Shown: positions 31,344 through 50,346 of the stretch, piece by piece
How the letters are laid out: each line of letters begins with the position of its first letter
How positions within the stretch are numbered: position 1 is the first letter of the stretch
Origin: Kiritimatiellota bacterium
Lineage (GTDB): Bacteria; Verrucomicrobiota; Lentisphaeria; Oligosphaerales; JAADHN01
Direction of reading: 5' to 3'
Length of the DNA stretch: 56,434 nt
NCBI GenBank assembly: GCA_013151865.1
Contig: JAADHN010000092.1
Location: 1 to 56,434, forward strand
The notes under the pieces: model-generated
The model's database searches: none
The model's input: only the letters and a program-made list of their open reading frames with translations
What the model was told of the DNA's origin: nothing
Translations under genes and position numbers: made by a program

Positions 31344-32000
31344 TCAGCGGCATTGGGGATCCGTCCCGCCGAACAACCGACACTCGACCTCGGCGCACAG
31401 TGCGTGATAAAACGGCAGGTGCCATTCCTGAACCGCAGCCGTATCTTCCGCGGGAGCTCTGATGACGATATGAGCCAAGTCCGACAGTCGCCCGCCGCAC
31501 GCACCGGTCATGGCGATTACGTGCATTTTTCGTGCCAACGCCACCCGCGCCGCCCAGATGATGTCTGCGGAATTACCCGATGTGCTGAGTCCCAGTAGGA
31601 TGTCTCCCGGCCGCCCCCAAGCGAACAGCTGTTGAGCGAAGACCAGTTCGCCACCTTGGTCGTTGAGCACCGCAGTCATCAGGGAAACGTGGGAGTTGAG
31701 AGAAAAAGCGCGCACCCCTCGCTGCAATCGCCCGGCCAAGTAGCACCCCGCTTCATCTCCACACGCTTCTTCAAGCGCCAACTGTTGATCCGACGTAAGC
31801 CGGCGGGGGATTCGGAACCCCTTGCCTAACTCACCGGCAATGTGATCGGCGTCGGCTGCACTTCCGCCGTTCCCGCAGATAAACAACGCGTTATCTCTCA
31901 GAAAACACTCCACCAGGAGGCACACCGCCTTCTCCAGCTCGGGGCCAACGGCACCGGCCTTGGGGCGTTGGACAAGTAAATTGCGAATATGAGAATACAT
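31344..32000 (-). CDS. GmhA-like SIS-domain phosphosugar isomerase
   Basis: A 218-residue cytoplasmic SIS-domain protein resembling GmhA, which converts sedoheptulose 7-phosphate to glycero-manno-heptose 7-phosphate for LPS core synthesis. Seen: FICGNGGSAADADHIAGELGKGF (sugar-phosphate loop), SHVSLMTAVLNDQG (compare SVLTAIGNDYG in GmhA), LGLSTSGNSADIIWAARVA and VIAMTGACGGRLSDLAHIVI. Start: ATG 32000 (MYSHIRN) with aggag is better supported than the GTG 33 bases earlier. It is slightly longer than typical GmhA (about 190). Divergent from dnaN. Confidence 0.83.
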   Translation of the reverse strand: MYSHIRNLLVQRPKAGAVGPELEKAVCLLVECFLRDNALFICGNGGSAADADHIAGELGKGFRIPRRLTSDQQLALEEACGDEAGCYLAGRLQRGVRAFSLNSHVSLMTAVLNDQGGELVFAQQLFAWGRPGDILLGLSTSGNSADIIWAARVALARKMHVIAMTGACGGRLSDLAHIVIRAPAEDTAAVQEWHLPFYHALCAEVECRLFGGTDPQCR

Positions 32001-32100
32001 TCGGGTTTGCTCCTGATTCGAGAGCGTTGTCACCGTCCACTCGTGGGGGAGGGAGCGACCACGGCGCCGGTGTACACGGACAGAAGCCTACAACCAACAC

Positions 32101-32310
32101 AGCAATGTGTCGACAACCTGTGTACAACATCAACACTGGTGGTTATTTACAGTTTACCGTCGTTTCATCGACAACTTGATGTCGGAACACAGACAGCCTG
32201 ATTCATTTTACCAAGAACATCTTACGGGACCCTATTGACAGAAACCCTCTCCTATAGTAATATATTAGAAATCTTTCTCAGATTCTATTCTTTGCAATAG
32301 CTGTCGATAA
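32101..32310. other. Candidate replication origin (AT-rich, DnaA-box-like sites)
   Basis: The 329-base gap between the SIS gene and dnaN is much richer in A+T than the rest of the window. It contains several sites one base from the DnaA box TTATNCACA: TTGTACACA (minus, 32127-32119), TTATTTACA (plus, 32143-32151) and TTATCGACA (minus, 32310-32302), plus a two-mismatch site at 32116-32108. Position beside dnaN-recF is a common origin location. dnaA is not in the window. Nothing proves origin activity. Confidence 0.4.
32235..32263 (+). promoter_or_regulatory. Strong sigma70-type promoter of dnaN
   Basis: TTGACA at 32235-32240 and TAATAT at 32258-32263 are separated by exactly 17 bases. The first is a perfect -35; the second differs from TATAAT in two positions. 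Transcription would start near 32270, about 60 bases before dnaN. It overlaps the candidate origin, so DnaA bound there could modulate dnaN. Confidence 0.8.
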
Positions 32311-32329
32311 CCTCATTCGGGGAATGGCA

Positions 32330-33421
32330 ATGAAGACATCGGTGACCAGAGACAACTTGGCTTCCGGCCTCCGCAGGGCCCTCAGCGTCGTTTCCACGCG
32401 AACCACGATTCCGGTGCTCAACAATGTATTGATCGAGGCCGACGACGGCAAGTTGGCGCTGACAACTACGGACTTGGAGGTCCAGGTTCGGACGGAAGTG
32501 GAAGCCGTTGTGGAGGAAAGCGGGGTCACTACACTTCCGGCCCGTAAGTTCGGCCAGCTTGTCAACGCCCTCCCCCCCGGGGAAGTGTACTTTGAAACGG
32601 GAGACAACGAGAGTACCGGGATTACTTGTGGGAACTCTCATTTTCGTCTGGTGGGACTGGATCCACAAGAATTCCCCAACGATGCGAGCTTCGAGGCGCA
32701 GTGGTCGTTTTCGTTGCCGTCGGCTGAATTCCGCAAGATGATCAACAAAGTTTCCTATGCGGTAAGTCTGGATGATCCGCGCCAGGTACTGAGCGGCATC
32801 CTGCTTAGCTTGCGCAACAACAATCTGATAGCGGTCGCGACCGACGGCAAACGTTTGGCCCTGCTCGAAAAGGGCCTCGAAGGCGAGTCGATGCCGGAAG
32901 GAGACGTGATCCTTCCCGACAAAGTGGTCAAGGAGCTGGAGCGACTCCTCGAGAATGAGGGTGATTTGTCTGTGGATCTCAGTGATTCACGGGCGGCTTT
33001 CAGCTTCGATGGGACTCGGATCACGTCAAAACTGGTCGACGGGGCGTATCCGAACTACCGTCAAGTAATTCCTGGCGGGTTTACGAAGTCTGTTGTAATC
33101 CCACGGGAAGTGTTTGCGGATGTACTCAATCGAGTTTCAATGGTGGTTAGCGAGACCAGTGCTTCGGTTAGACTCTCGATTGAGCCCGCCAAGATGACGG
33201 TGAGTGCACAGAGTCCGGAAGTGGGCGAGGCTAGTGAACCGCTTGAAGTCTCTTACGATGGTGAGCCCATCCAGTTTGCCTTCAACCCGTATTTTCTTGG
33301 CGATCCCCTTCGCAGACTGGAGTGCGATCAATTGGTACTGCAGTTCAACGATCAGTTCAGCCCGGTATCTCTGTCCGGAGACGAGGGGTTCCTGTACGTT
33401 CTGATGCCGATGCGCGGATGA
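32330..33421 (+). CDS. dnaN: DNA polymerase III beta subunit (sliding clamp)
   Basis: A 363-residue processivity clamp that encircles DNA and tethers the replicase; E. coli DnaN has 366 residues. It starts MKTSVTRDNLASGLRRALSVVSTRTTIPVLNNVLIEA, matching the family opening, and ends in the typical ...YVLMPMRG (compare MPMRL). The second ATG (32330) is preferred over 32324 because gggg at 32319-32322 is correctly spaced for it and the family begins MKxxV. The internal triplicated clamp-fold pattern is intact (FSLPSAEFRKMINKVSYAVS, VIPREVFADVLNRVS). It is transcribed with recF from the promoter upstream. Confidence 0.97.
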   Translation: MKTSVTRDNLASGLRRALSVVSTRTTIPVLNNVLIEADDGKLALTTTDLEVQVRTEVEAVVEESGVTTLPARKFGQLVNALPPGEVYFETGDNESTGITCGNSHFRLVGLDPQEFPNDASFEAQWSFSLPSAEFRKMINKVSYAVSLDDPRQVLSGILLSLRNNNLIAVATDGKRLALLEKGLEGESMPEGDVILPDKVVKELERLLENEGDLSVDLSDSRAAFSFDGTRITSKLVDGAYPNYRQVIPGGFTKSVVIPREVFADVLNRVSMVVSETSASVRLSIEPAKMTVSAQSPEVGEASEPLEVSYDGEPIQFAFNPYFLGDPLRRLECDQLVLQFNDQFSPVSLSGDEGFLYVLMPMRG

Positions 33422-33510
33422 ATGCCCGCCTTTCTGGGATTTGATCGCAGCACGGAACGTACGTGAACTTTGATCGCCTGGTGTGACCGGGGATCGTGAC
33501 GACCGGGTCC

Positions 33511-34635
33511 ATGTCCATCCTTCATCAGCTACGCCTCCGTGGTTTTCGCAACTATTCCCGGCTCGACATGAGTTTTCGGCCAGGGGTGAACCTTCTGGTG
33601 GGGGGGAACGGTCAGGGGAAAACCAATCTCCTGGAAGCTGTTTACTTCTTGTCTTTGCTTCGCTCGTTTCGCACGTCCCGGATCGCTGAACTGTGCGAGT
33701 GGGGGCGCTCCAGTTTTTTTGTGGGCGGTCGAATGGGAAGTTCGGGCGGTGCCGCGGGGACGGTGGGGTTGGCGGTAGGTGTTGGAAAAGTGCGTAGGAT
33801 GCGTGTAGACGGTCGACGGATCCATCGGGCGAGTGAATTCATCGACAAGTTTCATTGTGTCGCCTTGGTGCCCGAGGATATCCACTTGATTAGAGGACCG
33901 GCCGCGGAGAGGCGCAGGTTTCTGGACATCCTGCTGAGTCAGGCCGACCGGCGTTACCTGCATGTATTGGGCGGGTACAAACGACTACTTAAGTCTCGCA
34001 ACGCCATGCTGAGAAACAGCGGGCGTTTCGGACTGTCCGCGATTGCGGCCTTCGACGAACAATTATTGAGAGCGGGCGCCGCGTTAATCGGGGCCCGGGC
34101 CCGGTTGCAGGAGCGTTTGAAGGCTTCGGTGGTCGGCGAATGGAAGGGACTGTCAGAAGGGCCGGGAGGGGAGTTGAGCGTGGAGTACAAATCGATGCTG
34201 CGACAGGGAGAGCATTGTGAGGACAGTGAAGCGGATATGATAGAGACTTACCGAAGAATGCTTGCAGACACAGTTGATCAGGACCTTAAAGAGGGCTGGA
34301 CGCGTGTGGGGCCGCACCGTGATGACCTGTTGATTTTCTTGGACGGCAGAAAGCTGTCTGCGTTCGGTTCTGAAGGGCAATGTCGTCGGGCCGCCCTTGC
34401 GCTTCGGTTGGCGTCGATACAATTCCTGTCTCGCAGTGAATCGGTTAAGGTTGTGGTTCTGGTCGATGATGTGCTGGGGGAACTTGATTTGGAGCGTCGT
34501 ATGAGGTTTGGGGAAAGATTATCTGCCTGCGCACAGGTATTGCTTGCGTTGACCGAAGTGCCGGATTGGTTGCCGAGGGGGCCCGCGGCCACTTACAACG
34601 TGGGGAACGGGGCGGTGATTCGGGTACAAGGCTGA
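33511..34635 (+). CDS. recF: DNA replication and repair protein RecF
   Basis: An SMC-like ATPase of about 374 residues that loads RecA at gaps with RecO and RecR. It starts MSILHQLRLRGFRNYSRL, the classic RecF opening. Walker A GGNGQGKTN, ABC-signature-like FGSEGQCRRAALALRLA and Walker B VVVLVDDVLGELD are all present. The start is not certain: ATG 33511 fits the family, while GTG 33496 gives a five-residue extension with ggggat very close in front. It follows dnaN by about 90 bases; this is the conserved dnaN-recF order. No gyrB follows; an SSS gene converges instead. Confidence 0.95.
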   Translation: MSILHQLRLRGFRNYSRLDMSFRPGVNLLVGGNGQGKTNLLEAVYFLSLLRSFRTSRIAELCEWGRSSFFVGGRMGSSGGAAGTVGLAVGVGKVRRMRVDGRRIHRASEFIDKFHCVALVPEDIHLIRGPAAERRRFLDILLSQADRRYLHVLGGYKRLLKSRNAMLRNSGRFGLSAIAAFDEQLLRAGAALIGARARLQERLKASVVGEWKGLSEGPGGELSVEYKSMLRQGEHCEDSEADMIETYRRMLADTVDQDLKEGWTRVGPHRDDLLIFLDGRKLSAFGSEGQCRRAALALRLASIQFLSRSESVKVVVLVDDVLGELDLERRMRFGERLSACAQVLLALTEVPDWLPRGPAATYNVGNGAVIRVQG

Positions 34636-34792: not shown

Positions 34793-36715
34793 TCAGGGAG
34801 CGCTTCTCGGTGGGTCGGCCGCCGAGAAGAGAGGGTTAAGAAAGAGGCCCACGAAAAAGCACACGAGGTTGCCGACGACCGGCCAGAGAAGGAAATTCAC
34901 GCCGCCGGCCATCATGAGGAACAATGCGGCATACGAACTGACAAACCCCGCCCCGGCTGCCCATTTGTTGATGCGAATGGGTAAGAACGCCAGCGCCATG
35001 AGCCCCAACATGCCGTTGGTCGATATTCCCATGACCTTGCCCCAAACAATCTGGGCATAACGTATTTTCATGAATGCCAAGGCCATGGCGATGGCCGCCG
35101 CGCCCCAGAACAGTGTGAGACGACGGGCGAGACGCAGATACTCTTCTTCGCTCCTCTGTTTCCTGCTGAAGCGACGCCAGAAATCTTCGACACACACGGT
35201 TGAGGAGGAATTCATGCACGAGTCGATGCTGGACATGGCGGCGGCGAAGATGGCCGCGATGACGATTCCCGCGACGCCGGCCGGAAGATGATGCATTACA
35301 AAATAGGGATACATGGGATCTGCTTTACCCGGCAAGTTTACCGCCGGGTGGGCCCGGTAGAAGGCGAACAGGGCCGTCCCCAGAAAATAAAAGATGAAAC
35401 CCAACGGGATGTAACTGATAATGGCGATCCAGACACTTCGGTTCGCGGCCTTGACCGAGGGGGTTGTCATGTAGCGTTGTGTCATGTCTTGTTGTGTGCC
35501 GTAGATTCGGACCGTTTGAAAAATGGTCTCGAGGACGAGCCACAGGGTGACGATGCGTTTGGGATCGAAGTCGGGTATGAGCGTGCGGAATTTGTGGTGT
35601 TCGATGCTGACATCGAAGAACGTCTGCACCCCGAGATCGTTGAATATGTACCCGAGTGTGAGAAAGGCCCCGAGTATGAAAATGACCACTTGGATGGCAT
35701 CGGTCCAGACCACGGCCTTCATGCCGCCGATGACTGTATAGGCGGTGATGACGACCCCCATGAGTACGATGGCCAACCACAACGGGGTGCCGGTGACCGT
35801 GTGGAACGCCAGGGCGGGGAGGTAAAGGACCAGTCCCATGCGGCCGATGGAGAATAGGATAAAACAGATTGCGCCTGTAAGCCGCGCCGATACGTGAATT
35901 CTTTGTTCCAGGAATTCATAGACACTCACGATTCCCGCGGCGCGGTATCGCGGCAACACGATTCCGGTGATGATCATGGCCGTCAGCATGAGACACGGCA
36001 GTTGGACCATGTACGTCCAGTCGTGCTCGCCGTAGGACATGCCCGGTAAGCCCATCATGGTCAATGCGGACAGGTAGGTGCCCAGGATGGACAGACCTAC
36101 CAAGACGTAATTGAGCCGTCCGTCGGCGATGAAAAACCCCCGCGTGTTCGAGATCCCGCGGCCGCACCACAAACCCACGATGAGCATAGCGACGAGGTAT
36201 GCTGCGAGTACGCTCCAATTGGCGGCGCCGAAAGTGCGGCGCAAGACGAGTCGGCCCGAAAAGGGGATGATCATTGCTTTGAGCGGTTCCGCCGCCACGC
36301 CGCGTGTCCAATGCCATTCTCCCTTCAAGATCGGAGGTTTGAATTCCGCCACCGAGACCGGATGCAGGATCTCGAAAGAGACGCGGTGTTCGAGGCGCGC
36401 ACGCGGCGGCACCCGGATGTCTACAGCAGGCTCCGCCACTCGGCAGGTCGCGGGGATGTTTGCCCAAACCGCTTTCAGTTCCAATGGTTGCGGCGTGGGG
36501 TTCCTTATAGCGAGCTTGAAGGTCACGGCGCCCCGCAGTCGTTTGCCCCGGATTCGGACTTCCAGCCCGGAGACATAGGCCCCGCTGCGGATGGCGTCCT
36601 CGAATGGCGGCTCCCAAAAGCGCGGAAGATCCCGGGGGCGAAACCCCAGGGCGAAAAGGACGACGAGAATCACCAGTCCCGTGAGAAGTAGCCCGAACAC
36701 GGCATTCTTGAGCAT
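34793..36715 (-). CDS. SSS symporter with N-terminal membrane-anchored ectodomain
   Basis: A 640-residue protein. Start ATG 36715 (MLKNAVFGLLL) follows ggaggg; a longer frame has no such support. Residues about 5-25 form a membrane helix. About 30-165 form a beta-rich domain (ISGLEV-like start YVSGLEVRIRGKRL, then AVTFKLAIRNPTPQPLELKAVW and PPRARLEHRVSFEI) resembling an Ig-like or LEA14-like fold. From about 180 the standard SSS core begins: GFFIADGRLNYVLVGLSILGTYLSALTMMG, YTVIGGMKAVVWTDAIQ and MSSIDSCMNSSSTV. SSS proteins couple sodium entry to sugar, vitamin or amino acid uptake. The ectodomain is not part of the usual family. It could bind substrate outside the membrane; this is inference. 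Confidence 0.88.
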   Translation of the reverse strand: MLKNAVFGLLLTGLVILVVLFALGFRPRDLPRFWEPPFEDAIRSGAYVSGLEVRIRGKRLRGAVTFKLAIRNPTPQPLELKAVWANIPATCRVAEPAVDIRVPPRARLEHRVSFEILHPVSVAEFKPPILKGEWHWTRGVAAEPLKAMIIPFSGRLVLRRTFGAANWSVLAAYLVAMLIVGLWCGRGISNTRGFFIADGRLNYVLVGLSILGTYLSALTMMGLPGMSYGEHDWTYMVQLPCLMLTAMIITGIVLPRYRAAGIVSVYEFLEQRIHVSARLTGAICFILFSIGRMGLVLYLPALAFHTVTGTPLWLAIVLMGVVITAYTVIGGMKAVVWTDAIQVVIFILGAFLTLGYIFNDLGVQTFFDVSIEHHKFRTLIPDFDPKRIVTLWLVLETIFQTVRIYGTQQDMTQRYMTTPSVKAANRSVWIAIISYIPLGFIFYFLGTALFAFYRAHPAVNLPGKADPMYPYFVMHHLPAGVAGIVIAAIFAAAMSSIDSCMNSSSTVCVEDFWRRFSRKQRSEEEYLRLARRLTLFWGAAAIAMALAFMKIRYAQIVWGKVMGISTNGMLGLMALAFLPIRINKWAAGAGFVSSYAALFLMMAGGVNFLLWPVVGNLVCFFVGLFLNPLFSAADPPRSAP

Positions 36716-37145
36716 CGAACGACCCTCCGAGGTTGTGTGATTCGATCTGGAAGCCCGCTCGCAGTGCGGCGAAAAGGAAGTATGCTTTGGTACGGTTTCA
36801 ATCCCAGCGGCATGGCGTTGACCGTGCCGGACGTGGTTGAAGGCCGGGCTCGGAGGCAGCGACCGCTGAGTGTCTGTCACAATTTGCTGCGCCATGCATC
36901 TTTTTCCAGTCCGATGTCTACCCGAAACGTTTTCCGCGGCCGGGAAAACAATTTGGAATTCGGACCGAGGGGGGAAGATCCGCAGGTTGCCCGGCGCCGA
37001 TTGTCCGATGGGCGACGCCGCATTGGCGGCACGAGCAGTTCCGAGTCTTGGCCGAGGTGAGTTTCAGTGTTCGGTCAGTCACGTATCTCCCGGCCGACCA
37101 TTCATCCGAGCCTGTTTGCCGCGAAGAACTCAGGAGGACCCATCC
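36716..37145. other. Divergent intergenic region, no gene recognised
   Basis: About 430 bases between the SSS gene and the flavin oxidoreductase gene. A rightward reading frame crosses it from 36870 but lacks coding character, and the strong aggagga at 37132-37138 marks the real start downstream. No clear promoter was identified. Confidence 0.4.
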
Positions 37146-38114
37146 GTGACGAATACAATCGAGACGTCCAGGCTGTTTGCTCCTCTCCAGGTTCGCCAAT
37201 GGACTTTTCGGAACCGGGTCGTCATGCCCCCCATGGTCACTTGTCGTTCGATTACTGCCGAAGACGGCGTGGAATGGTATCGCCGTCGTGCTGCCGGCGG
37301 CGCGGCATTGGTAATTGTCGAGGCCACCGGCGTGCCGCGATTCGGCTCGGAATTGACGGCGCCATCGCTTCGTCCGCTGGTGGACGCCGTACACCGGGAA
37401 GGCGCTCTGGCGGCAATTCAATTGTTCCCGGTCAACCGGGGCGACGATCACCAGGTGGACGCTTTGGTCGATGCAGAAATCGAGGGGATCGTTCGGGCAT
37501 ATCGTCTTGCCGCAAGAGTATGTCTCGACGCGGGATTCGACGGCGTCGAGCCCCACGGGGCACACGGTTTCTTGTTGAATCGTTTTTTCTCGTCGGCTCA
37601 CAACCATCGCACGGACAAGTATGGAGGGACGCCGGAGAACCGGGCGCGGTTGGCTGTCGAAATCGTCAGGACGCTTCGCGAAACAGTGAAGGAAAAAATG
37701 CTGCTGCTCTACCGTCACAGCCCTGTTATGGAGCCGGGGTATGGTTTGGAGGAGAGTCTGGAATTGACGCAGCGACTGGTGGCTGAGGGTGTGGACATTC
37801 TGGATCTGTCCCCTTCGAGTCGAGAGGGGCCGGCGGACTTGGCAGCTCCTTTCCGGCGTTTCGGCGTTCCCGTTATCGCCGTGGGCGCAATGGATCAGCC
37901 GTCCCGTGCGGCGGAGGCCCTCCGCGAGAAACGCGCCGACCTGATCGCCGTAGGTCGCGGCCTGATCGCCGATCCGGACTGGCCCCGCAAAGTCCGCCGC
38001 GGGCAATGGGACGCTGTCGTGGGCTGCATCAAATGCGATCTGAAGTGCTTCGGCAATCTCCGCACCGGTATTCCCATTGCGTGCACTCAGTGGGACGAGG
38101 CGGAATTCAAGTAG
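37146..38114 (+). CDS. Old Yellow Enzyme-like NADH:flavin oxidoreductase, short form with 4Fe-4S site
   Basis: A 322-residue FMN-type TIM barrel. GTG 37146 is chosen because aggagg lies 8 bases before it. Seen: LFAPLQVRQWTFRNRVVMPPM at the start, GGAALVIVEATGV, HGAHGFLLNRFFSSAHNHRTDKYGG (substrate and FMN contacts with the family's RTDxYGG), and ADLIAVGRGLIADPDW. It ends with CIKCDLKC followed 11 residues later by Cys, exactly the C-x2-C-x3-C-x11-C iron-sulfur ligand spacing of 2,4-dienoyl-CoA reductase/trimethylamine dehydrogenase types. The C-terminal FAD/NAD(P)H domain those enzymes carry is absent; the protein stops about ten residues after the last Cys. It lies 17 bases before the GH51 gene. 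Confidence 0.85.
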   Translation: MTNTIETSRLFAPLQVRQWTFRNRVVMPPMVTCRSITAEDGVEWYRRRAAGGAALVIVEATGVPRFGSELTAPSLRPLVDAVHREGALAAIQLFPVNRGDDHQVDALVDAEIEGIVRAYRLAARVCLDAGFDGVEPHGAHGFLLNRFFSSAHNHRTDKYGGTPENRARLAVEIVRTLRETVKEKMLLLYRHSPVMEPGYGLEESLELTQRLVAEGVDILDLSPSSREGPADLAAPFRRFGVPVIAVGAMDQPSRAAEALREKRADLIAVGRGLIADPDWPRKVRRGQWDAVVGCIKCDLKCFGNLRTGIPIACTQWDEAEFK

Positions 38115-38131
38115 AACGGAGGCCGGGATAA

Positions 38132-40663
38132 ATGATAATGGTCTCGAGGTTGATCGGCGCGATGGTGTTACTGACCGCCGCCGTGCGTGCAGCGGGTTGG
38201 CGCGACGAGTTCGATGGTCCGAAATTGAACCCACGCTGGACGTTCGACGTTCCCGTTCCGGGACCGTCCCTGAAACTCGGCGCGCGTCCGGGCTGGCTGC
38301 GATTGGTGGTGCCGCAAACCGCCCAAGGTTTCAACCACTGGACCGGCATCCAAAGGGCGCCGTTTCTGAGAACGACTGCCCCCAAGGGGGATTGGGATTT
38401 GAGTGCCCGAATCAACCTCGTCGAGTGGAAGCCGGAGTCGAATTTGCACTTGGCGCTGGTTGTGGGGACTTCGGACGAAAGGGTCCTGGCATGGGGCCCC
38501 TTCTTGAGTCGTGCGCTCTATCCGGATCACCCCAAGCCGGCGCTGTGGGTCGAACCGACCGGACAAGGGGCCTATATCCAGACCGACGTTCTCCCCGAGA
38601 ATGTCGAAGTGCGGATTTCGAAACGTGTGGATACATACCGTTTTCTATACCGAAAACACGGTGAAAAACGCTGGACCGAAGCCGGCTCTTTCTATGGCCC
38701 GGATTTCACGCCCCGCTTTGTCGGATTGATGGGGAAATCGTTTGCCGCGAACCCCGCCGGCGCTCTTGATGTGGACTATCTGGAACTCAAGCCATACCGG
38801 TCCGCCCCTGCGCCCGCGCCGCTTGAAGCCCGGCTCCGTGTCGACATCGAAGCCCCGGCCGTCCGGCTCCCCGAGTACCAGCGGGGTGCGTTTATCGAGA
38901 TGCTCGGCTCCTGTGTTTTCCAAGGGATTTGGGACGAACGCCTCACAAACCGCAAGTTCACGGGGGCGGCGGGGCCGGACGGTGTCGTCTGGCAATGGGA
39001 GGTTCAGGGCCGAGTTCGAAGTTGCGCCCCGGACCGGCGCTTGTTCTTCGCCGAGCCCCAGAGTCAACGGATCGAACTGGACGATGGCGCGGGGGGAGTG
39101 GTCCAGAGCGGATTGGTTCTCGAGCCCGGGCGCATGTATCGGGCTCGGATCGCGGCTCGCGTCAAGGGCGCCGTACAGCGACTGCAAGTGACCTTGCAGG
39201 TCGGAAAGAAAGCGATCGCGCATGAATTCACAGTCCCAAACGACGACTGGCATTCCTACACGTGTGAAATCGAGTGTCCTGCCGGCACGGACCCTGCGCG
39301 GTTCTCCATCGGCGCAACGGGGCCGGGAACGCTTTGGATCGGCGCCGCTTCCCTCATGCCGGCGGACAACGTGGGCGGTTTCAGGAGGGATCTCCTCGAT
39401 GTAATCCGCCTGGCCCCGCCGTCCATGATTCGTTGGCCGGGAGGCAACATGGTCTCCGGCTACCAGTGGCGCGACGGCGTGGGGGACCCCGACCGCCGGC
39501 CCATGCGCTGGGATCGGGCCTGGAACGCCTGGGTGTATAATGATATGGGAACGGACGAATTCATAGAGTACTGTCGTTTCATCGGGGCGGAGCCGTGCAT
39601 CTGTGTCAACGCCGGGGAAGGTACGGCGGAGCAGGCCGCCCAGTGGGTCGAGTATTGCAATGGCGGCCCGGAAACGCCCATGGGGCGCCTGCGGGCCGCC
39701 AACGGCCACCGGGCCCCGTACAATGTTCGGTACTGGGATGTCGGCAACGAAATCTGGGGGCCCTGGCAGCTCGGGCACGTCGGTCCGGAGGTCTACGGGC
39801 TGCGCGCCGTCGAGTTCGCCCGCGCGATGCGACGGGCATCTCCCGATATCGTCTTGGTGGGTTGCGGTGTCTTTCGGGACGATTTCGACCGCTGGAATCG
39901 ACGGATGCTGCCCATCTGCGGGCAATTCATGGATCTGCTCTCCGTGCACAATTACGTCGAATACGACATCCGCCGTTGCACGGCAGCCACATGGGAAAAG
40001 GTCGTCGGCGCCCCGGTGCGCATCGAGTCCGCCTTGCGCGAGACGTTTCGAATCGCACGAACAGCGGCCGGGAAAACCCTCCCCCTGGCCTTTGACGAGT
40101 GGAACGCCATCCCCCACATGCATGGCTGCCGCGGCGGTCAGGGCCTGCCCGAGGCAGTCTACGCCGCAGGAATGTTTCATGCCCTGCAGCGCTGTGGGGA
40201 GAATGTGCCGATCGCCAATTACGCCCTGCTCGTGAACCCCATCGGCGCCGTCCGAACCACCTCCCTCCAGGTGATTCAGACCCCGGTTTTTCTGACATTC
40301 CGCCTGTTTGCGGCACACACCGGTCCCTGGCGAATACCCGTCCGGATCCAGTCCCCTAACCTCGGAAAAACCCCGGTATTCGACGCAAGCGCCACGCTGT
40401 CGGCGGACCGGGCCACCCTGAATTTGACGGCAATCAACCGGCACCCGTCCCGTTCGCTGCGCGTGCGCTGGAACGTTCCCGGAGTGCGGCCCGGTTCCGC
40501 CCTGAAGTGGTCCGTCATATCCGGTCCGGAGCCGTGGGCTCGCAACACGGCCGAAAACCCGCGCAACGTTCGGATGCGCACATTCTCGGGGACGTGGAGC
40601 GACTTTGCATCCGCATCCCTGCCGCCTGCCGCCGTGATCGGGGCTTCTGTGCGGCTGAAATGA
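38132..40663 (+). CDS. Secreted alpha-L-arabinofuranosidase, GH51-like
   Basis: An 843-residue protein with a short signal peptide (LIGAMVLLTAAVRA). The N-terminal 230 residues are a concanavalin-like/DUF1349-type module (GWRDEFDGPKLNPRWTF). A GH51-type region follows: FIEMLGSCVFQGIWDE, a carbohydrate-binding insert, then MIRWPGGNMVSGYQWRDG, the strongest family hallmark. The acid/base Glu540 is in DVGNEIWGP and the nucleophile Glu656 in FDEWNA, with the expected order and distance. Predicted to release arabinofuranose from arabinan or arabinoxylan side chains. Start: ATG 38132 has ggagg at 38118-38122. Probably co-transcribed with the oxidoreductase upstream. Confidence 0.9.
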   Translation: MIMVSRLIGAMVLLTAAVRAAGWRDEFDGPKLNPRWTFDVPVPGPSLKLGARPGWLRLVVPQTAQGFNHWTGIQRAPFLRTTAPKGDWDLSARINLVEWKPESNLHLALVVGTSDERVLAWGPFLSRALYPDHPKPALWVEPTGQGAYIQTDVLPENVEVRISKRVDTYRFLYRKHGEKRWTEAGSFYGPDFTPRFVGLMGKSFAANPAGALDVDYLELKPYRSAPAPAPLEARLRVDIEAPAVRLPEYQRGAFIEMLGSCVFQGIWDERLTNRKFTGAAGPDGVVWQWEVQGRVRSCAPDRRLFFAEPQSQRIELDDGAGGVVQSGLVLEPGRMYRARIAARVKGAVQRLQVTLQVGKKAIAHEFTVPNDDWHSYTCEIECPAGTDPARFSIGATGPGTLWIGAASLMPADNVGGFRRDLLDVIRLAPPSMIRWPGGNMVSGYQWRDGVGDPDRRPMRWDRAWNAWVYNDMGTDEFIEYCRFIGAEPCICVNAGEGTAEQAAQWVEYCNGGPETPMGRLRAANGHRAPYNVRYWDVGNEIWGPWQLGHVGPEVYGLRAVEFARAMRRASPDIVLVGCGVFRDDFDRWNRRMLPICGQFMDLLSVHNYVEYDIRRCTAATWEKVVGAPVRIESALRETFRIARTAAGKTLPLAFDEWNAIPHMHGCRGGQGLPEAVYAAGMFHALQRCGENVPIANYALLVNPIGAVRTTSLQVIQTPVFLTFRLFAAHTGPWRIPVRIQSPNLGKTPVFDASATLSADRATLNLTAINRHPSRSLRVRWNVPGVRPGSALKWSVISGPEPWARNTAENPRNVRMRTFSGTWSDFASASLPPAAVIGASVRLK

Positions 40664-40949
40664 GGCGAGAGAGGGTATTGGACCGTCAGGGCGCACGCCG
40701 GAGCGCGGCAGTCGGAAAGGGCTTGTTCCGGATGGGGGCGAGACCGGGCGCCGCGAGCAGCGTCCGACGGTCGGTGCGTCAACCGTATCTTGATTTCGTC
40801 CGACGTTGCGACGGCTTGTCCCTTCCGTCCCGTTCGCTGTCCGTCCTGACAACCGTCGTTTCGGTGGTCGCGCCGCGCTTGGCGATCCCGGTCGGGGGCT
40901 GGACGCATCGGGTGGGCGGACGCGATCCGGGCTCGGGACCCCTCGGAAA

Positions 40950-42467
40950 TCAAAGCCGGTGTGAAGTCCGTCGCGGGACACCCAGCGTTTCCAGGTGACG
41001 TACGAAATGTCTTTCCAGGTTGGCGGCGTACCCGCTTTCGTCGGCTTCGAGGGCGGCGAAGAATCGAGGACCAAGTTTCGGGTCCGGCAGGATTCCGCCG
41101 TAGGTTACGTGCAGCAACTGACGGGCGTCGTCGTGGTCCATCAGGGCCGGCAGTTCGGCGTCCGGCAGCTCGTCGAGGTTCGGGATCGAGGCGAGGTCGG
41201 GGGTGACATGGTAGTACGCCAAGGCCTCGGGGAAGAACTCCACCGCACGACGATGGAGATCCCGATAGAGCCGCGGAGCAGACTGAGCGATCGTGCGGAC
41301 CGCCTCCAGCCAACTCGTGCCCGCGGTTTTCACGTGAACGCAAAGATCGCTGCAGCGACCGATGGTGGGATACACGCTGAACTTGTCGCTGCCCGAGTGG
41401 ACCGAGATCTTGTATCCGCCGTGAGTCTCCGCAATGGCGCAATGCAGGGCGAACTGTTTCTCGAACTCGGCCAAATCTCCAATGTAATCCACGGCCTTCT
41501 GGAACTCACCCACGAAACGCGGGGCCAGCGACGAAAGCTCAACTCCGAGCCGGCGCAGTTCGAGAATGATGTACAAATGGTGTTCCGGTTGGGTCGGGGC
41601 GGTGGTTTCATCAATGGAAAGCTCGAGGTCGAATTCGTCCCCGCGGCGCTTGCGCAGGTGACCGTACACTTCTGCAGCAAATTCGAGCGCACGCCCGTAC
41701 ATCACGGCGCAACGCTCCACCTCGAGTTTCGAAAGCAAAATGCTGGTTTGCCCGGCCGCGAACCGTTTGTCGGCATAGGCGGTCGAGACGTGCCGCCGGA
41801 AACCGTCGGGCAACGCGGCAAAAGCCCCTGCCACGCGCCCGGCATCCCATTTCTCGGCCTCTGCCGTCATGACCTCGCTGAGGTCGAGGGTGATCATTGT
41901 CATGCCGGCGTCCACGGCCCGGTCGATGTCGGACAGTGTCTTCAGATGGTCCCCGTCCGCACCGAAGCCGGCGCGATATCCTTCCTGAAATACCAAGTGC
42001 ACGACGTCGTCCACCACTCGCGGGAAGGTGCGATGAGTCAGGGCCAGTTCCCGGATCGACTGCTGAGCCAGGACCGGGGCCGCTTCGAATTGGGCTACGG
42101 CCCGCAGGTGTCCCGACGTAGCCATTCCCAGGCGGTCTCCGCAGCCGAATGTCGTACGCCGACGCCGCAGAGAAACGGGAGCGGTCCATGGGAACAGGCG
42201 CCGCAGAACCGCGGCGGTCGCCGGGGACAATACGTGCTGCCGCCAAACCAGGCGCCCACTTCGACAGACATCGGACGACAGGTCCGGAAGCAATTTGCCG
42301 GGATTGTCCGTGATTTCGAACAATCGCTTGCCCGTCCGGGTCCGCGCCAGACAGAACAGCACGCCGTCCGCGGACGCCCAACTGGATGGGTAGACCCGAA
42401 CGTCGGGGGCCTGCCCGGCCAATACCGAGTCGAACTGGGACCGGATTTCCTCGATGCGTCCCGTCAT
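40950..42467 (-). CDS. uxaE: Tagaturonate epimerase UxaE
   Basis: A 505-residue cytoplasmic enzyme that interconverts D-tagaturonate and D-fructuronate, joining galacturonate and glucuronate catabolism. Recognised by FGCGDRLGMATSGHLRAV, PVLAQQSIRELALTHRTF, VFQEGYRAGFGADGDHLKT, TMITLDLSE, and IAETHGGYKISVHSGSDKFSVYP followed by HVKTAGTSWLEAVR; the His, Asp and Glu residues in these segments are the expected metal and active-site positions. Start: ATG 42467 follows aaggagaggg; upstream codons are non-coding. Its presence implies uronate (pectin) use, consistent with the rhamnosidase and arabinofuranosidase in the window. Confidence 0.88.
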   Translation of the reverse strand: MTGRIEEIRSQFDSVLAGQAPDVRVYPSSWASADGVLFCLARTRTGKRLFEITDNPGKLLPDLSSDVCRSGRLVWRQHVLSPATAAVLRRLFPWTAPVSLRRRRTTFGCGDRLGMATSGHLRAVAQFEAAPVLAQQSIRELALTHRTFPRVVDDVVHLVFQEGYRAGFGADGDHLKTLSDIDRAVDAGMTMITLDLSEVMTAEAEKWDAGRVAGAFAALPDGFRRHVSTAYADKRFAAGQTSILLSKLEVERCAVMYGRALEFAAEVYGHLRKRRGDEFDLELSIDETTAPTQPEHHLYIILELRRLGVELSSLAPRFVGEFQKAVDYIGDLAEFEKQFALHCAIAETHGGYKISVHSGSDKFSVYPTIGRCSDLCVHVKTAGTSWLEAVRTIAQSAPRLYRDLHRRAVEFFPEALAYYHVTPDLASIPNLDELPDAELPALMDHDDARQLLHVTYGGILPDPKLGPRFFAALEADESGYAANLERHFVRHLETLGVPRRTSHRL

Positions 42468-42647
42468 GGCGCGTCCCTCTCCTTCACTGGACGTCCGGCG
42501 GGCTTTGCGTTGCGCAGAGCTTCCGGACTTCTGAAACCCGATCCGGACCCACACCCCCGGTCGGGGATCGTCGCTCCCGGCAACTGCTCGAACAGCAAGT
42601 GCGGGAGCGGGTTGCTTGGTCAAGAACATTCGACCGGTTGCCGGGCC

Positions 42648-42680
42648 GGCAAGAAAAACGCCCTGTCGAAAACAGGGCGT
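42648..42680 (-). terminator. Rho-independent terminator of the sigma factor gene
   Basis: Reading leftwards, a perfect 9-bp stem ACGCCCTGT/ACAGGGCGT with a 5-base loop (42680-42658) is followed by TTTTCTTG. It lies 30 bases after the sigma factor stop. Confidence 0.9.
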
Positions 42681-42709
42681 CCGTGTTTCAGGCCGACAGG
42701 GTTCTGCGG

Positions 42710-43546
42710 TCAGACCGCGAGTTCTTCTTCGACGCCCTCTTCATCGAGCATCATCCGCAGCTTCTCGAGCGCCTGATTCTGGATTTGACGCACGCGCTCG
42801 CGCGTCCGGCCGATGCATTGGCTCACTTCCTCGAGGGTTCGCGGGCGCTCGCCGTTCAGGCCGAAGCGGAGCTGCAGAATCCGCCGTTCCCGGTCGTCCA
42901 GATGATCGATGAGTTCGAGCATGTGCCGCAGAGTCTCTGCGTCTTGGACCAGGGCGTCCGGCCCGATGCTTTTGTCGTCCGGGATGATGTCCCGGAATTC
43001 GCCGTCCTCACCGTGCTGGATCGGGTCGTGCAGAGAAATGGTCGTCGTTTTACCGAGCCGCAGGCCCGAGACGGTTCGGACCGTAAGGTTGACTTCCTCG
43101 GCGATCTCCTTGTCCGTCGGCTCACGATCCAGTTTTTCTTTCAAGCGCGCGCGCGCGGCTTGTATCTTGCTGATCTTGCTGGCGGACTGCACCGGGATGC
43201 GGATCGTTCGCGCTTGGTTGGCCAATGCGCGCCGCATGGACTGCTTGATCCACCAGGCCGCGTAGCTGCTCAGCTTGGCTCCCTTGGAAGGGTCGAACTT
43301 TTCCACGGCCCGCATCAACCCGATGTTGCCCTCGGAAATCAGGTCGAGCAACGGGAGGCCAAGCCCTTTGAAGTCGTGGGCAATCTTCACCACCAAGCGG
43401 AGATTGCTCCGGATCAGCTTGTCGCGGGCTTCGGCATCGCCGGCAGCTATTCGGGCCGCAAGCTCCACTTCCTCCTGGGGCGTGACCAGCGAGTACTGCC
43501 CGATATTCTGCATATAGAGCTTCATTGTGTCATTGTCTGACAGCAT
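42710..43546 (-). CDS. RNA polymerase sigma factor, short RpoD/RpoS-like (sigma70 group)
   Basis: A 278-residue sigma70-family factor. Region 1.2 (MKLYMQNIGQYSLVTPQEEVELA) and region 2 (LIRSNLRLVVKIAHDFKGLGLPLLDLISEGNIGLMRAVEKFDP, then YAAWWIKQSMRRALAN) are complete. Region 3 (RARLKEKLDREPTDKEIAEEV) and region 4 (LEEVSQCIGRTRERVRQIQNQALEKLR) follow. The region 1.1 and the large non-conserved region of E. coli RpoD are absent, so it may be a compact primary sigma or a group 2 (RpoS-like) factor; sequence alone cannot tell. Start: ATG 43546 follows ggagga. It is monocistronic, with its own promoter and terminator. Confidence 0.95.
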   Translation of the reverse strand: MLSDNDTMKLYMQNIGQYSLVTPQEEVELAARIAAGDAEARDKLIRSNLRLVVKIAHDFKGLGLPLLDLISEGNIGLMRAVEKFDPSKGAKLSSYAAWWIKQSMRRALANQARTIRIPVQSASKISKIQAARARLKEKLDREPTDKEIAEEVNLTVRTVSGLRLGKTTTISLHDPIQHGEDGEFRDIIPDDKSIGPDALVQDAETLRHMLELIDHLDDRERRILQLRFGLNGERPRTLEEVSQCIGRTRERVRQIQNQALEKLRMMLDEEGVEEELAV

Positions 43547-43653
43547 CGAGACTCAATCCTCCATGATAGCGGGTCATGGTGCGGACACGCGTCGGAAAGC
43601 GAGACCGGGTCGACGCCCGTGAGAGGCACGAATAAACCGCCGTACCGAAGTCT

Positions 43654-43683
43654 ATAATATACCCAAACTCACGCGTTTGTCAA
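43654..43683 (-). promoter_or_regulatory. Sigma70-type promoter of the sigma factor gene
   Basis: Reading leftwards, a perfect TTGACA (43683-43678) is followed after 16 bases by TATATT (43661-43656), or after 18 by TATTAT. Transcription would begin near 43648, about 100 bases before the start. This near-consensus form suggests recognition by the housekeeping sigma, possibly by the product itself. Confidence 0.78.
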
Positions 43684-44132
43684 CCTTCGGCAACCATGAT
43701 GCGAAAACCGCCCAACACCACGCTGGAACTCTGCCACAATACAAAAACGGCCCGGGTCGCGTCATTATTGGCGGGCCCCGTCCCATGCACCGACACTCAC
43801 TTGCGCAAACCGAACGAACGCACCGCCCGGGGATGACCCGCGGAGGACGAGCGCCCCGGGTGCCGATGCAATGCAGACGGCAGGTCTCCGGAGCCGCGCC
43901 CGGCGGACCGAAGCGCGATTCACCCGGTACGTGTGTTGCGCTTCACGCCCCGTGTCTTGTCTCCAACGGTTCCATCCACCCAGGGCAGTGCCTGCCCCCG
44001 GCTTCTTGCGCCCCGTGGAACAGGACATACATTTGCCTGCGTCACGGGGTACGGATTTACGGCACGGTCCCGAATCGTGCCAACCGCCGAAAAGCCCCTT
44101 TTGGGCGGCGGGAAAGACGAAAGGAGGCCGCC
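43684..44132. other. Intergenic region with no recognised gene
   Basis: About 450 bases. tmRNA, RNase P, SRP RNA and 6S signatures were looked for by eye and not found. A GC-rich stem followed by TTTTT on the minus strand lies around 43746-43785 (cgggcc...tttttg) and could terminate a leftward transcript entering the sigma promoter region. aaggagg at about 44120-44126 marks the next gene. Confidence 0.4.
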
Positions 44133-44642
44133 ATGCGAGTCGCCGTGGGATCGGTCGTCAAAGGGTTCGAACTCAAGAGTGCGATCATTGACCATCTGCG
44201 CGCCCACGGGCACGAGGTGGTCGACGCCGGCTGCTACGGGACCGACGTATTTGCCAAGTTTCCGTCCGTTGGACAGCGAATCGCCCGAATCCTGCAGCGC
44301 GGTGAGGCGGAACTCGCCGTGAATTGCTGCGGCAGCGGCACCGGCGCGGCCTTGGCTGCCGGAAAATTCCAGGGGGTTTGCGCCGTGAGTTGCGAATCCG
44401 TCCGGACCGCCCGCCTGGCCCGGGTGGTGAACGACGCCAACTGCCTGTGCCTGGGGGAAAGCATTGTCCAGCCCGAACTCGCCTGCCGCATGGTCGACGC
44501 GTTTCTTGCGGCCCGGTTTCAGGATGCCGAGGGCGTTCCCCAAGCCGTGCTCGATTTCTGGGACGAGGCCCGCCGTGAACTGATGGACCGCGGCGGTCCC
44601 GCCGGACCTCGGGAAGTGGAATCCCTGCCGGGAGTGCTTTGA
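44133..44642 (+). CDS. RpiB/LacA/LacB-family sugar-phosphate isomerase
   Basis: A 169-residue cytoplasmic enzyme that interconverts aldose and ketose phosphates (ribose 5-phosphate/ribulose 5-phosphate, or galactose 6-phosphate/tagatose 6-phosphate). It has the family opening MRVAVGSVVKGFELKSAIIDHLRAHGHEVVDAG and the active-site loop NCCGSGTGAALAAGKFQGVCAVSC. Its catalytic Cys sits in the NCCGSG segment, as in RpiB (compare CGTGxGxSI). It departs from standard RpiB in several loop residues, so the exact sugar is open. Start: ATG 44133 with aaggagg. An upstream frame extension is not supported. Confidence 0.88.
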   Translation: MRVAVGSVVKGFELKSAIIDHLRAHGHEVVDAGCYGTDVFAKFPSVGQRIARILQRGEAELAVNCCGSGTGAALAAGKFQGVCAVSCESVRTARLARVVNDANCLCLGESIVQPELACRMVDAFLAARFQDAEGVPQAVLDFWDEARRELMDRGGPAGPREVESLPGVL

Positions 44643-44778
44643 GCATTCCGAAACCAACTTCGGACGCAAGTGAATGGCGCGAAACCCACCGCGCGTTACC
44701 GAAACAAGCTTGGCGCGCCACGTGCGCGTTCCTGCGCTTTGACCGGCCGTTACAGCCCCACCAGCCGAGGATTTGCTC

Positions 44779-46164
44779 ATGCACACCCCGTTTGCGCTCT
44801 GTTCCACCGCGGTTTCCGGGATCGTCCTCCAGGCATTGGTTGCCGCCGCGCCCGAAGACCGCCTGACCGCGCTGGACCGGTACGTCTCGGCGCCGGACGA
44901 GAACTATGCGTATCGTCTAATGTCCCGGGCCCGAACCGACAAGGGCTGTTGTTACGTCCTCTACATGGCCTCCCAAGTCTGGCGCACAGGCCGAGACGTG
45001 GACCGAATCCTCTGGCGGCACTGGCTGGAAATCTACGTGCCCGACCGCGTCGAGCACGATACCGCTCTGCTTTTCATCACCGGCGGCAAGAACGATTACC
45101 AGCCGCCCGATACCCCCCAGAACGCTTTGGTGCGGATCGCCGCCGAAACGCGGTCCGTGACCGTTCGCCTCCAGGCCGTGCCGAATCAACCCCTGTTTTT
45201 TCTCGCCGACCCGGAACTCCGTGAGCGCTCCGAGGACGCCATCCTGGCTTTTGCCTGGGCGCAGTACCTCAAGGACGGTGACGAAACCTGGCTGCCCCTG
45301 TTGCCCATGGTCAAGAGTGCCGTCCGCGCCATGGACACGACCACTGCGTTTTGCGCAGGCCTGGAAGATGGTCCCATACAGGTTCGCCGTTTCGTGGTCA
45401 CCGGCGCCTCCAAACGAGGCTGGACTTCGTGGCTCACGGCTGCCGCCGACCGTCGCGTGATCGGCGTCGCACCCATCGTGATCGACCTGCTGAACGTGCG
45501 GGCCTCGATGAAACATCAGCACCGCGCCTACGGTTATTTCTCCGAGGCCGTCCAAGATTATGTCGAAAACGGCGTACTCGATGCCATGGATACCCCCCGC
45601 GGCCGGGCGGCGACCGCGATTGTGGATCCCTACGCCTATCGGCGCCGCTACACCATGCCCAAGCTCATACTGAATTCAACCGGCGACCAGTTCTTCCTGC
45701 CCGATTCCTGGCGGTTCTATTGGAACGACCTGCCCGGCCCAAAAGTCTTGCGGTACGTCCCCAACACGGACCATGGCCTCAACGATTCCGCCTACGAAAC
45801 GCTGGCAACGTTCTATGCATCGGTCTTGAAAGGCCGCCCTTTGCCCCGATTCACCTGGCAGGTCGAGGCCCCGGGGCGGATCCGGGTGACCGCTCGGGAC
45901 AAGCCGCGGCAGGTCTTGGTTTGGCGCGCCCGAAACCCGAAAGCCCGCGATTTTCGGCTGGCAACGATCGGCGCGGCTTGGCACAGCACCGAACTGGCCG
46001 AGTCGAGCCCGGGGGTTTATGTCGCGGAGCAGCCGGCCCCGGCGCAGGGCTGGGCCGCTTTCGTCGTCGAGTTGATCTACCCCGACCCTTTCGTTTCCGG
46101 TCGCTCCCTGCGTCTGACCACCGGCGTCAGCGTGGTCCCGGATCGTCTTCCCTTTGCCGAGTGA
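44779..46164 (+). CDS. PhoPQ-activated pathogenicity-related family hydrolase
   Basis: A 461-residue alpha/beta-hydrolase of the PqaA type. It begins with a short hydrophobic leader (FALCSTAVSGIVLQALVAAA), so export is likely. Family sequences: LEIYVPDRVEHDTALLFITGG, then VVTGASKRGWTSWLTAAADRRV with nucleophile Ser near residue 211, NSTGDQFFLPDSWRFYW with the probable catalytic Asp, and NTDHGLNDS with the catalytic His. The biochemical activity of this family is poorly known; members occur widely in Planctomycetes and relatives. ATG 44779 is chosen because gagga at 44767-44771 is correctly spaced. Its 3' end overlaps the convergent membrane protein gene by 38 bases. Confidence 0.87.
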   Translation: MHTPFALCSTAVSGIVLQALVAAAPEDRLTALDRYVSAPDENYAYRLMSRARTDKGCCYVLYMASQVWRTGRDVDRILWRHWLEIYVPDRVEHDTALLFITGGKNDYQPPDTPQNALVRIAAETRSVTVRLQAVPNQPLFFLADPELRERSEDAILAFAWAQYLKDGDETWLPLLPMVKSAVRAMDTTTAFCAGLEDGPIQVRRFVVTGASKRGWTSWLTAAADRRVIGVAPIVIDLLNVRASMKHQHRAYGYFSEAVQDYVENGVLDAMDTPRGRAATAIVDPYAYRRRYTMPKLILNSTGDQFFLPDSWRFYWNDLPGPKVLRYVPNTDHGLNDSAYETLATFYASVLKGRPLPRFTWQVEAPGRIRVTARDKPRQVLVWRARNPKARDFRLATIGAAWHSTELAESSPGVYVAEQPAPAQGWAAFVVELIYPDPFVSGRSLRLTTGVSVVPDRLPFAE

Positions 46165-50063: not shown

Positions 50064-50346
50064 TTCCGCCATTCTCCAGCGTGCCCGGGAACCCTTGCAG
50101 CCATCCGCGGCAGATCTCAAAATCCGCTCGGCAGTATGCTCCCGACCTCACAGCCTCTTGCCGACTTCCATCCCCGGCCCGGTCCCAAAGGAGGTAGTCC
50201 CTCGGAAGCCGTGCCGTTTTCAGGGCGACCCGTGGCGAGCCACCCCAAAAAGATGATGCCGGACCGACCGCGGCGGATGTCCTTGCAAGACCCCCTTCGA
50301 AACAAGGCGCGCTGCTCCACGCGCCCTATTCGGACGGACTCCCGCA

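Follow-up and report, generated by a model that had tools for sequence, protein, structure and literature searches.

Where does replication of the chromosome start in a bacterium whose dnaN is not accompanied by dnaA? An origin beside dnaA is the common textbook arrangement in bacteria, and the question is raised here by a contig of 56,434 nucleotides (C142, the whole of which is called the window below) from a lentisphaeral genome assembled in 176 contigs and 97% complete. The genes around its dnaN are as follows.

24.4-31.0 kb, minus strand: T2SSE/T2SSF pilus-type genes (domain matches)
31344..32033, minus strand: SIS-domain (GmhA-like) gene, Pfam SIS_2, divergent neighbour of the gap
32034..32323, no strand: proposed oriC gap, AT-rich, with the divergent SIS-domain gene on one side and dnaN on the other
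32324..33421, plus strand: dnaN, DNA polymerase III sliding clamp, three Pfam clamp domains
33496..34635, plus strand: recF, SMC_N match

A first-pass annotation had proposed a replication origin in this gap, had described GmhA-like and pilus genes close to dnaN (borne out by the domain matches above) and had stated that dnaA was not beside dnaN. The assembly agreed: dnaA was located on another contig, C91 (148 kb), where DnaA is encoded at L001:1150-2508 (453 amino acids from the assumed start), and the window carries dnaN-recF without the adjoining dnaA of the canonical dnaA-dnaN-recF block. The gap between the SIS-domain gene and dnaN is in all likelihood the chromosomal oriC, uncoupled from dnaA. 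Computed results that bear on this reading are the excess and phasing of DnaA-box-like sites, the instability of the adjacent DNA, synteny, the points at which the skew turns in relatives and an altered recognition helix in DnaA. A box cluster beyond chance expectation, an adjacent AT-rich element calculated to melt easily and a DnaA encoded in the genome, which are among the features looked for in an oriC, were found.

The GC content of the gap was 46%, relative to 63% for the whole window, and the lowest-GC 200-bp stretches of the window (39% GC, starting at 32101, 32111 and 32121) lay inside it, in keeping with the earlier description of an AT-rich gap in GC-rich surroundings. According to nearest-neighbour energies, the least stable 40 bp and 120 bp of the window were found at 32253-32293 and 32198-32318, respectively, and the least stable 80 bp were taken as a putative unwinding element, the melting of which is a calculated property.

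32232..32312, no strand: proposed unwinding element, least stable 80 bp of the 56-kb window by nearest-neighbour stability

A comparable placement was seen in 10 of 19 relatives, in which the 40 bp of lowest stability within the 450 bp preceding dnaN were centred between -42 and -67. No terminator-like site was found near the gap, a search for RNA families in the window returned one tRNA 8 kb from the gap and no other family, and a genome-wide search for parS-like sites at one mismatch gave no match.

Six DnaA-box-like sites were identified in the gap by comparison with the relaxed consensus TTATNCACA, three with one mismatch (32119 and 32302 on the minus strand, 32143 on the plus strand) and three with two (32108 on the minus strand, 32165 and 32232 on the plus strand).

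32108..32127, minus strand: candidate double DnaA box, TTGTCGACA (32108-32116) and TTGTACACA (32119-32127) on the same strand with 2 bp between them
32143..32151, plus strand: DnaA-box-like site TTATTTACA, consensus match
32165..32173, plus strand: DnaA-box-like site TCATCGACA, consensus match
32232..32240, plus strand: DnaA-box-like site CTATTGACA, overlapping the -35 hexamer of the predicted dnaN promoter
32302..32310, minus strand: DnaA-box-like site TTATCGACA, best single match, directly upstream of dnaN

The first-pass count of three sites one base from the DnaA box thus held for TTATNCACA but not for the strict form TTATCCACA, from which 32302 alone differed by one base, and its single weaker site was an undercount. 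C was present at box position 6 in only one of the six sites (32119), which departs from the C6 of TTATNCACA. Within the 300 bp upstream of dnaN, six TTATNNACA sites (at most one mismatch) were counted against 1.1 expected from 300 dinucleotide shuffles (p = 0.003, the lowest value possible with 300). Outside the gap, the best 220-bp cluster of the window had three sites, no cluster of more than two boxes was detected in the 140 of 148 kb scanned on the dnaA contig, and the gap was the best box cluster in the 196 kb of this genome examined. The strict pair TGTNNAYAANNTGTNNAYAA occurred once in the genome of 6,213,565 bases, at 32108-32127 (reversed control, 0), and the single-box form TGTCGAYAAC at 19 places, two of them in the gap (reversed control, 4). 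A matrix trained on 19 relatives, to which the window did not contribute, also placed the best cluster of the 56 kb in this gap; after a first motif fit that was too permissive (298 sites), a tighter fit was used, with which 7 of the window's 22 hits (at least 8 bits, one-base-shifted hits on the near-palindrome being counted) fell in the gap, compared with at most three in 140 kb of the dnaA contig. Escherichia coli DnaA favours box pairs spaced 2 or 3 bp apart (PMC11317965), and the candidate pair resembles the E. coli double boxes described there in consisting of same-strand 9-mers at such a distance; it differs at box positions 5-6, which are CC in E. coli and CG and AC in the candidate boxes here.

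The site at 32232 coincides in part with a predicted promoter, which had been called near-perfect; this was accurate for the -35 hexamer, but the -10 matched at four of six positions.

32235..32263, plus strand: predicted sigma-70-type dnaN promoter, TTGACA-17-TAATAT, 10 of 12 consensus matches
32255..32263, plus strand: trinucleotide run TAGTAATAT, DnaA-trio-like, also spanning the -10 of the dnaN promoter

Runs of TANTANTA were present on the plus strand of the dnaN-proximal 140 bp in 10 of 20 stretches (3.2 expected) and on the minus strand likewise in 10 of 20. Because of this enrichment on both strands, and because it coincides with the likely -10, TAGTAATAT is regarded only as a candidate DnaA-trio.

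Relatives were collected with an alignment-based contig search, from which the best 80 of 517 were kept; the named dnaN relatives were mostly Lentisphaerae, Lentisphaeria or Victivallales, including Oligosphaera ethanolica (G012, a single contig). This disposed of a planctomycete affiliation, which the gene content had first suggested. Among 20 fetched relatives, recF followed dnaN directly in 19 (in the remaining one, L048, the sequence ends just past dnaN), and 14 had a divergent SIS-domain gene no more than about 350 bp from dnaN, with no such gene found in five; in L060 (G052, with the duplicate L032) it was about 1 kb away, across an 819-bp gap with almost no boxes. Boxes were counted in 20 of 30 dnaN-upstream stretches (29 loci and the window), after removal of loci from genera already present (L048, L051, L057, L059, L035, L037, L039 and L041) and of L060 with its duplicate L032; one genus (g22) was counted twice (L036 and L040), and G044 (L029) was left out. 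No locus was obtained from 23 of the 53 genomes that have dnaN, and these 23 do not enter the count; two of them (G053 and G054) were examined separately. The 20 stretches contained 111 boxes, as against 35.2 +/- 5.6 expected and a maximum of 50 in 300 shuffles, the excess being significant by itself (p < 0.05) in 13 stretches and not in seven. Boxes were also phased, with same-strand spacings of 11 and 12 bp observed 8 and 4 times (0.1 and 0.2 expected) and spacings of 22 and 23 bp observed 6 and 4 times (0.2 and 0.1 expected).

When 59 genomes were searched with the strict double box, 34 matches were obtained in 24 genomes and none in the other 35 (reversed control, 5). Five were located no more than about 340 bp upstream of dnaN (G000, G020, G026, G029 and G042), approximately four preceded the estimated start of dnaA by a few hundred bases (G023, G024, G049 and G055), and the remaining 25 were near neither gene. 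The double box is thus enriched and fits DnaA, and in the relatives it is not exclusive to the dnaN gap; double boxes outside oriC have been reported for E. coli as well (PMC11317965).

Cumulative GC skew over the window itself showed a local dip near 32 kb and its lowest value near 5 kb, in what is a 56-kb piece of a 176-contig genome. Skew in relatives was followed in 20-kb tiles sampled from four near-complete genomes. In O. ethanolica the minimum was flat from 2.09 to 2.55 Mb (lowest at 2.09-2.15 Mb), with dnaN at 2.34 Mb and dnaA at 0.61 Mb, and the maximum, near 5.05 Mb, was close to the point opposite dnaN (5.21 Mb). The minimum in G048 was flat from 1.19 to 1.41 Mb (lowest at 1.41 Mb; dnaN at 1.23 Mb, dnaA at 0.23 Mb), and in G053 the skew was lowest at 1.67 Mb (dnaN at 1.64 Mb, dnaA at 3.05 Mb). 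The fourth genome, G054 of the same class, had its minimum within 0.41-0.81 Mb (lowest at 0.61 Mb, sign change at 0.41-0.61 Mb), dnaN being at 0.95 Mb and dnaA at 1.30 Mb. The sampled minimum was therefore at or near dnaN in three of the four, and in none of the four next to dnaA, the position that had been named as evidence against an origin at dnaN. With the box cluster and its 11-bp phasing recurring in relatives, the first-pass proposal of a candidate origin gained support. Box excess is weak in the relatives whose skew is best (L058, from the genus Oligosphaera, 3 versus 2.5, p = 0.44; L061, from G048, 6 versus 4.1, p = 0.22), or there is a single weak site in the 300 bp preceding dnaN (G053); since the two lines of evidence, skew and boxes, derive largely from different relatives, they support each other mainly through their shared position. 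In G054 a double box was observed at G054:C1:587840-587859, far from both dnaN and dnaA; as this lies within the interval of the skew sign change, the origin of that genome may have moved again.

The separation of dnaA from dnaN is probably old. In a midpoint-rooted DnaN tree of 88 rows, 35 lentisphaeral rows grouped together (support 100/100), of which four had too little DNA for the position of dnaA to be judged; in none of the 31 others (30 and the window) was a same-strand dnaA found in the 4 kb upstream of dnaN, the nearest approach being L165, with dnaA about 4.0 kb away on the opposite strand. Among the other 53 rows, dnaA-dnaN was present in 44, absent in eight and undecidable in one, and dnaA was situated just upstream of dnaN in the Kiritimatiellae and in most of the Verrucomicrobiae sampled. 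The absence of dnaA upstream of dnaN across the judgeable lentisphaeral rows indicates that the block broke long ago, so that the earlier remark on a broken dnaA-dnaN block was right but describes an ancestral state. We infer that dnaA had already moved out of the block in an ancestor of the lentisphaeral rows; the eight exceptions show that there are further losses, or missing stretches. Two record titles appeared to be mislabelled: L168 (JABMPJ010000059.1, 'Lentisphaerae') grouped with Kiritimatiellae in this tree, and L092 (JAIPIM010000014.1, 'Paceibacterota') with Lentisphaeria. Extra DnaN-like matches were seen in G001, G003, G007, G010, G016, G021, G047 and G058, as open frames of about 380-620 amino acids with 25-34% identity to the clamp and, in some cases, two or three copies.

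The DnaA of this genome also differs from the usual form. Its recognition helix reads RNHGT by alignment, compared with RDHTT in the solved DnaA 8btg. D433, H434 and T435 (E. coli numbering) are among the base-contact residues of DnaA, and residue 433 has been reported as a conserved contact (PMC7561715). In all 30 class members examined, residue 433 was N (26), T (3) or S (1), and residue 435 was A in 29 and G in one, the genome of the window; at 45 other loci, D433 was found in 35, always with G435, and T433 (7) or N433 (3) with A435 in ten. The N433/G435 pair was the only one of its kind among the 75 examined: in all others G435 accompanied D433, and A435 accompanied N433, T433 or S433. DnaA sequences were read for 30 of the 52 genomes in which there was a match, so that for several of the 20 gaps the state of residue 433 is taken from class membership. 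The proportion of TTATNNACA sites with C at position 6 was 29 of 31 at 32 D433 loci of Verrucomicrobiota, 6 of 25 at nine non-D433 loci with dnaA-dnaN intact, and 7 of 25 in the 20 lentisphaeral dnaN gaps (p = 1e-7 and 4e-7; 0.008 and 0.0006 with the looser TTRTNNACA). These p-values refer to sites rather than to independent events, and overstate the evidence since the non-D433 state may have arisen once. The published contact is with box position 7 and the shift was at position 6, an adjacent but different base, so the suggested link between helix and box is a lead. It is about an even bet that, in an ancestor of Kiritimatiellae and Lentisphaeria, DnaA changed from D to N, T or S at 433 and to A at 435 while the box lost its C6, and that later, in Lentisphaeria, dnaA left and the re-coded origin stayed with dnaN. 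If true, the DnaA-origin code would have been rewritten across the class, the genome of the window being mixed, with N433/G435 and CG-type boxes (TTRTCGACA).

A possible forerunner is visible where dnaA has remained in place. At nine non-D433 dnaA-dnaN loci (Kiritimatiellae type) and 31 D433 loci, the dnaA-dnaN gap, taken to begin where the dnaA match ends, contained 55 and 25 boxes (14.5 and 9.2 expected), respectively, and the region upstream of dnaA 30 and 65 (11.6 and 23.7 expected). It is plausible that an origin lying partly in such a box-rich gap could stay with dnaN after dnaA had left. These Verrucomicrobiae and Kiritimatiellae loci resemble the window in their excess of boxes beside dnaN; they have it upstream of dnaA as well, and differ in that dnaA is still next to dnaN and that neither SIS nor recF was found beside dnaN in the sampled loci. 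For Methylacidiphilum infernorum, an origin has been placed 250 nt upstream of dnaA by GC skew (PMC2474590), and the gene context of oriC is described as variable in a review (PMC4285127). A closer parallel is found in cyanobacteria, in which oriC is known in a gap beside dnaN that dnaA does not flank (PMC4674748). The oriC of Cyanothece ATCC 51142, as described there, shares with the window a position just upstream of dnaN, an AT-rich stretch, few boxes and a lineage-specific consensus. The boxes themselves are different (TTTTCCACA in cyanobacteria; TTRTNNACA without a fixed C at position 6 here), as are the SIS gene neighbour and the recF after dnaN, and the cyanobacterial origin is backed by DnaA binding data, the one proposed here by comparative sequence evidence. 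Among titles listed from the open-licence literature on oriC or dnaA in Phycisphaera, Lentisphaera and Verrucomicrobia, none dealt with this origin.

The same observations could be read in other ways. The gap could be only a DnaA-controlled promoter of dnaN, perhaps also of the SIS gene, with the origin elsewhere, as might be suggested by the overlap of the -35/-10 pair with a box, by the double boxes outside the dnaN gap (close to dnaA in some four relatives, with 25 matches elsewhere), by a mild excess of boxes upstream of dnaA (51 versus 31.5 +/- 5.1 at 30 loci) and by G054, in which dnaN is not at the skew minimum. On the other side, three relatives have their skew turning point at or near dnaN, arrays phased over some 200 bp are unlike a single operator, and the unstable element adjoins the boxes in the window as well as in 10 of 19 relatives, which makes this explanation unlikely. 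Were the origin instead beside dnaA on contig C91, the textbook arrangement would be preserved, and G054 indicates that no single rule fits the whole class. Against such a location, the 300 bp upstream of the genome's own dnaA (start assumed) had no TTATNNACA site at one mismatch or fewer, C91 had no cluster of more than two boxes in the 140 of 148 kb scanned, and dnaA was away from the sampled skew minimum in G012, G048, G053 and G054; we consider it extremely improbable.

A further alternative concerns the motif rather than the place. The palindrome-like motif TTGTNNACAA might be the site of a regulator other than DnaA, given that the motif of the relatives is nearly symmetric (TTGTtaACAA) and departs from TTATCCACA, and that many double-box matches are remote from dnaN and dnaA. 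Its 11-bp spacing (2 bp between 9-mers) is nevertheless that of DnaA pairs (PMC11317965), the motif also occurs near some dnaA genes, and its departure from the canonical box accompanies a changed DnaA recognition helix, leaving another regulator highly unlikely.

With the gap taken as oriC, we infer that it is bound by DnaA, that it melts and that it serves its own genome as a bidirectional origin. DnaA made from the gene on contig C91 would bind the box array, the pair at 32108-32127 seating a dimer and the other boxes extending the filament towards dnaN. Opening would follow at the weakest DNA (32232-32312, with the TAGTAATAT run inside), where the helicase would be loaded, and two forks would depart, one through dnaN-recF and the other through the SIS and pilus genes. 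The same occupancy might touch the dnaN promoter, the -35 of which overlaps a box. On the evolutionary side, the origin would have stayed with dnaN when dnaA left the block in the ancestor of Lentisphaeria. Comparative evidence thereby places an origin in a little-studied class and suggests that dnaN, not dnaA, is the origin marker in this order, in which case software that takes dnaA as the reference point for rotating or annotating genomes would put the origin in the wrong place.

Elsewhere in the window, a family B DNA polymerase with an exonuclease domain (Pol II-like) was encoded at 47820-50120 on the minus strand, 15 kb from the proposed origin. Carbohydrate-related genes were abundant in two regions (73-23909 and 34793-46164) and included an alpha-L-rhamnosidase, an arabinofuranosidase C-terminal domain, GH42- and GH101-like genes, a sulfatase, a tagaturonate epimerase and two sodium:solute symporters.
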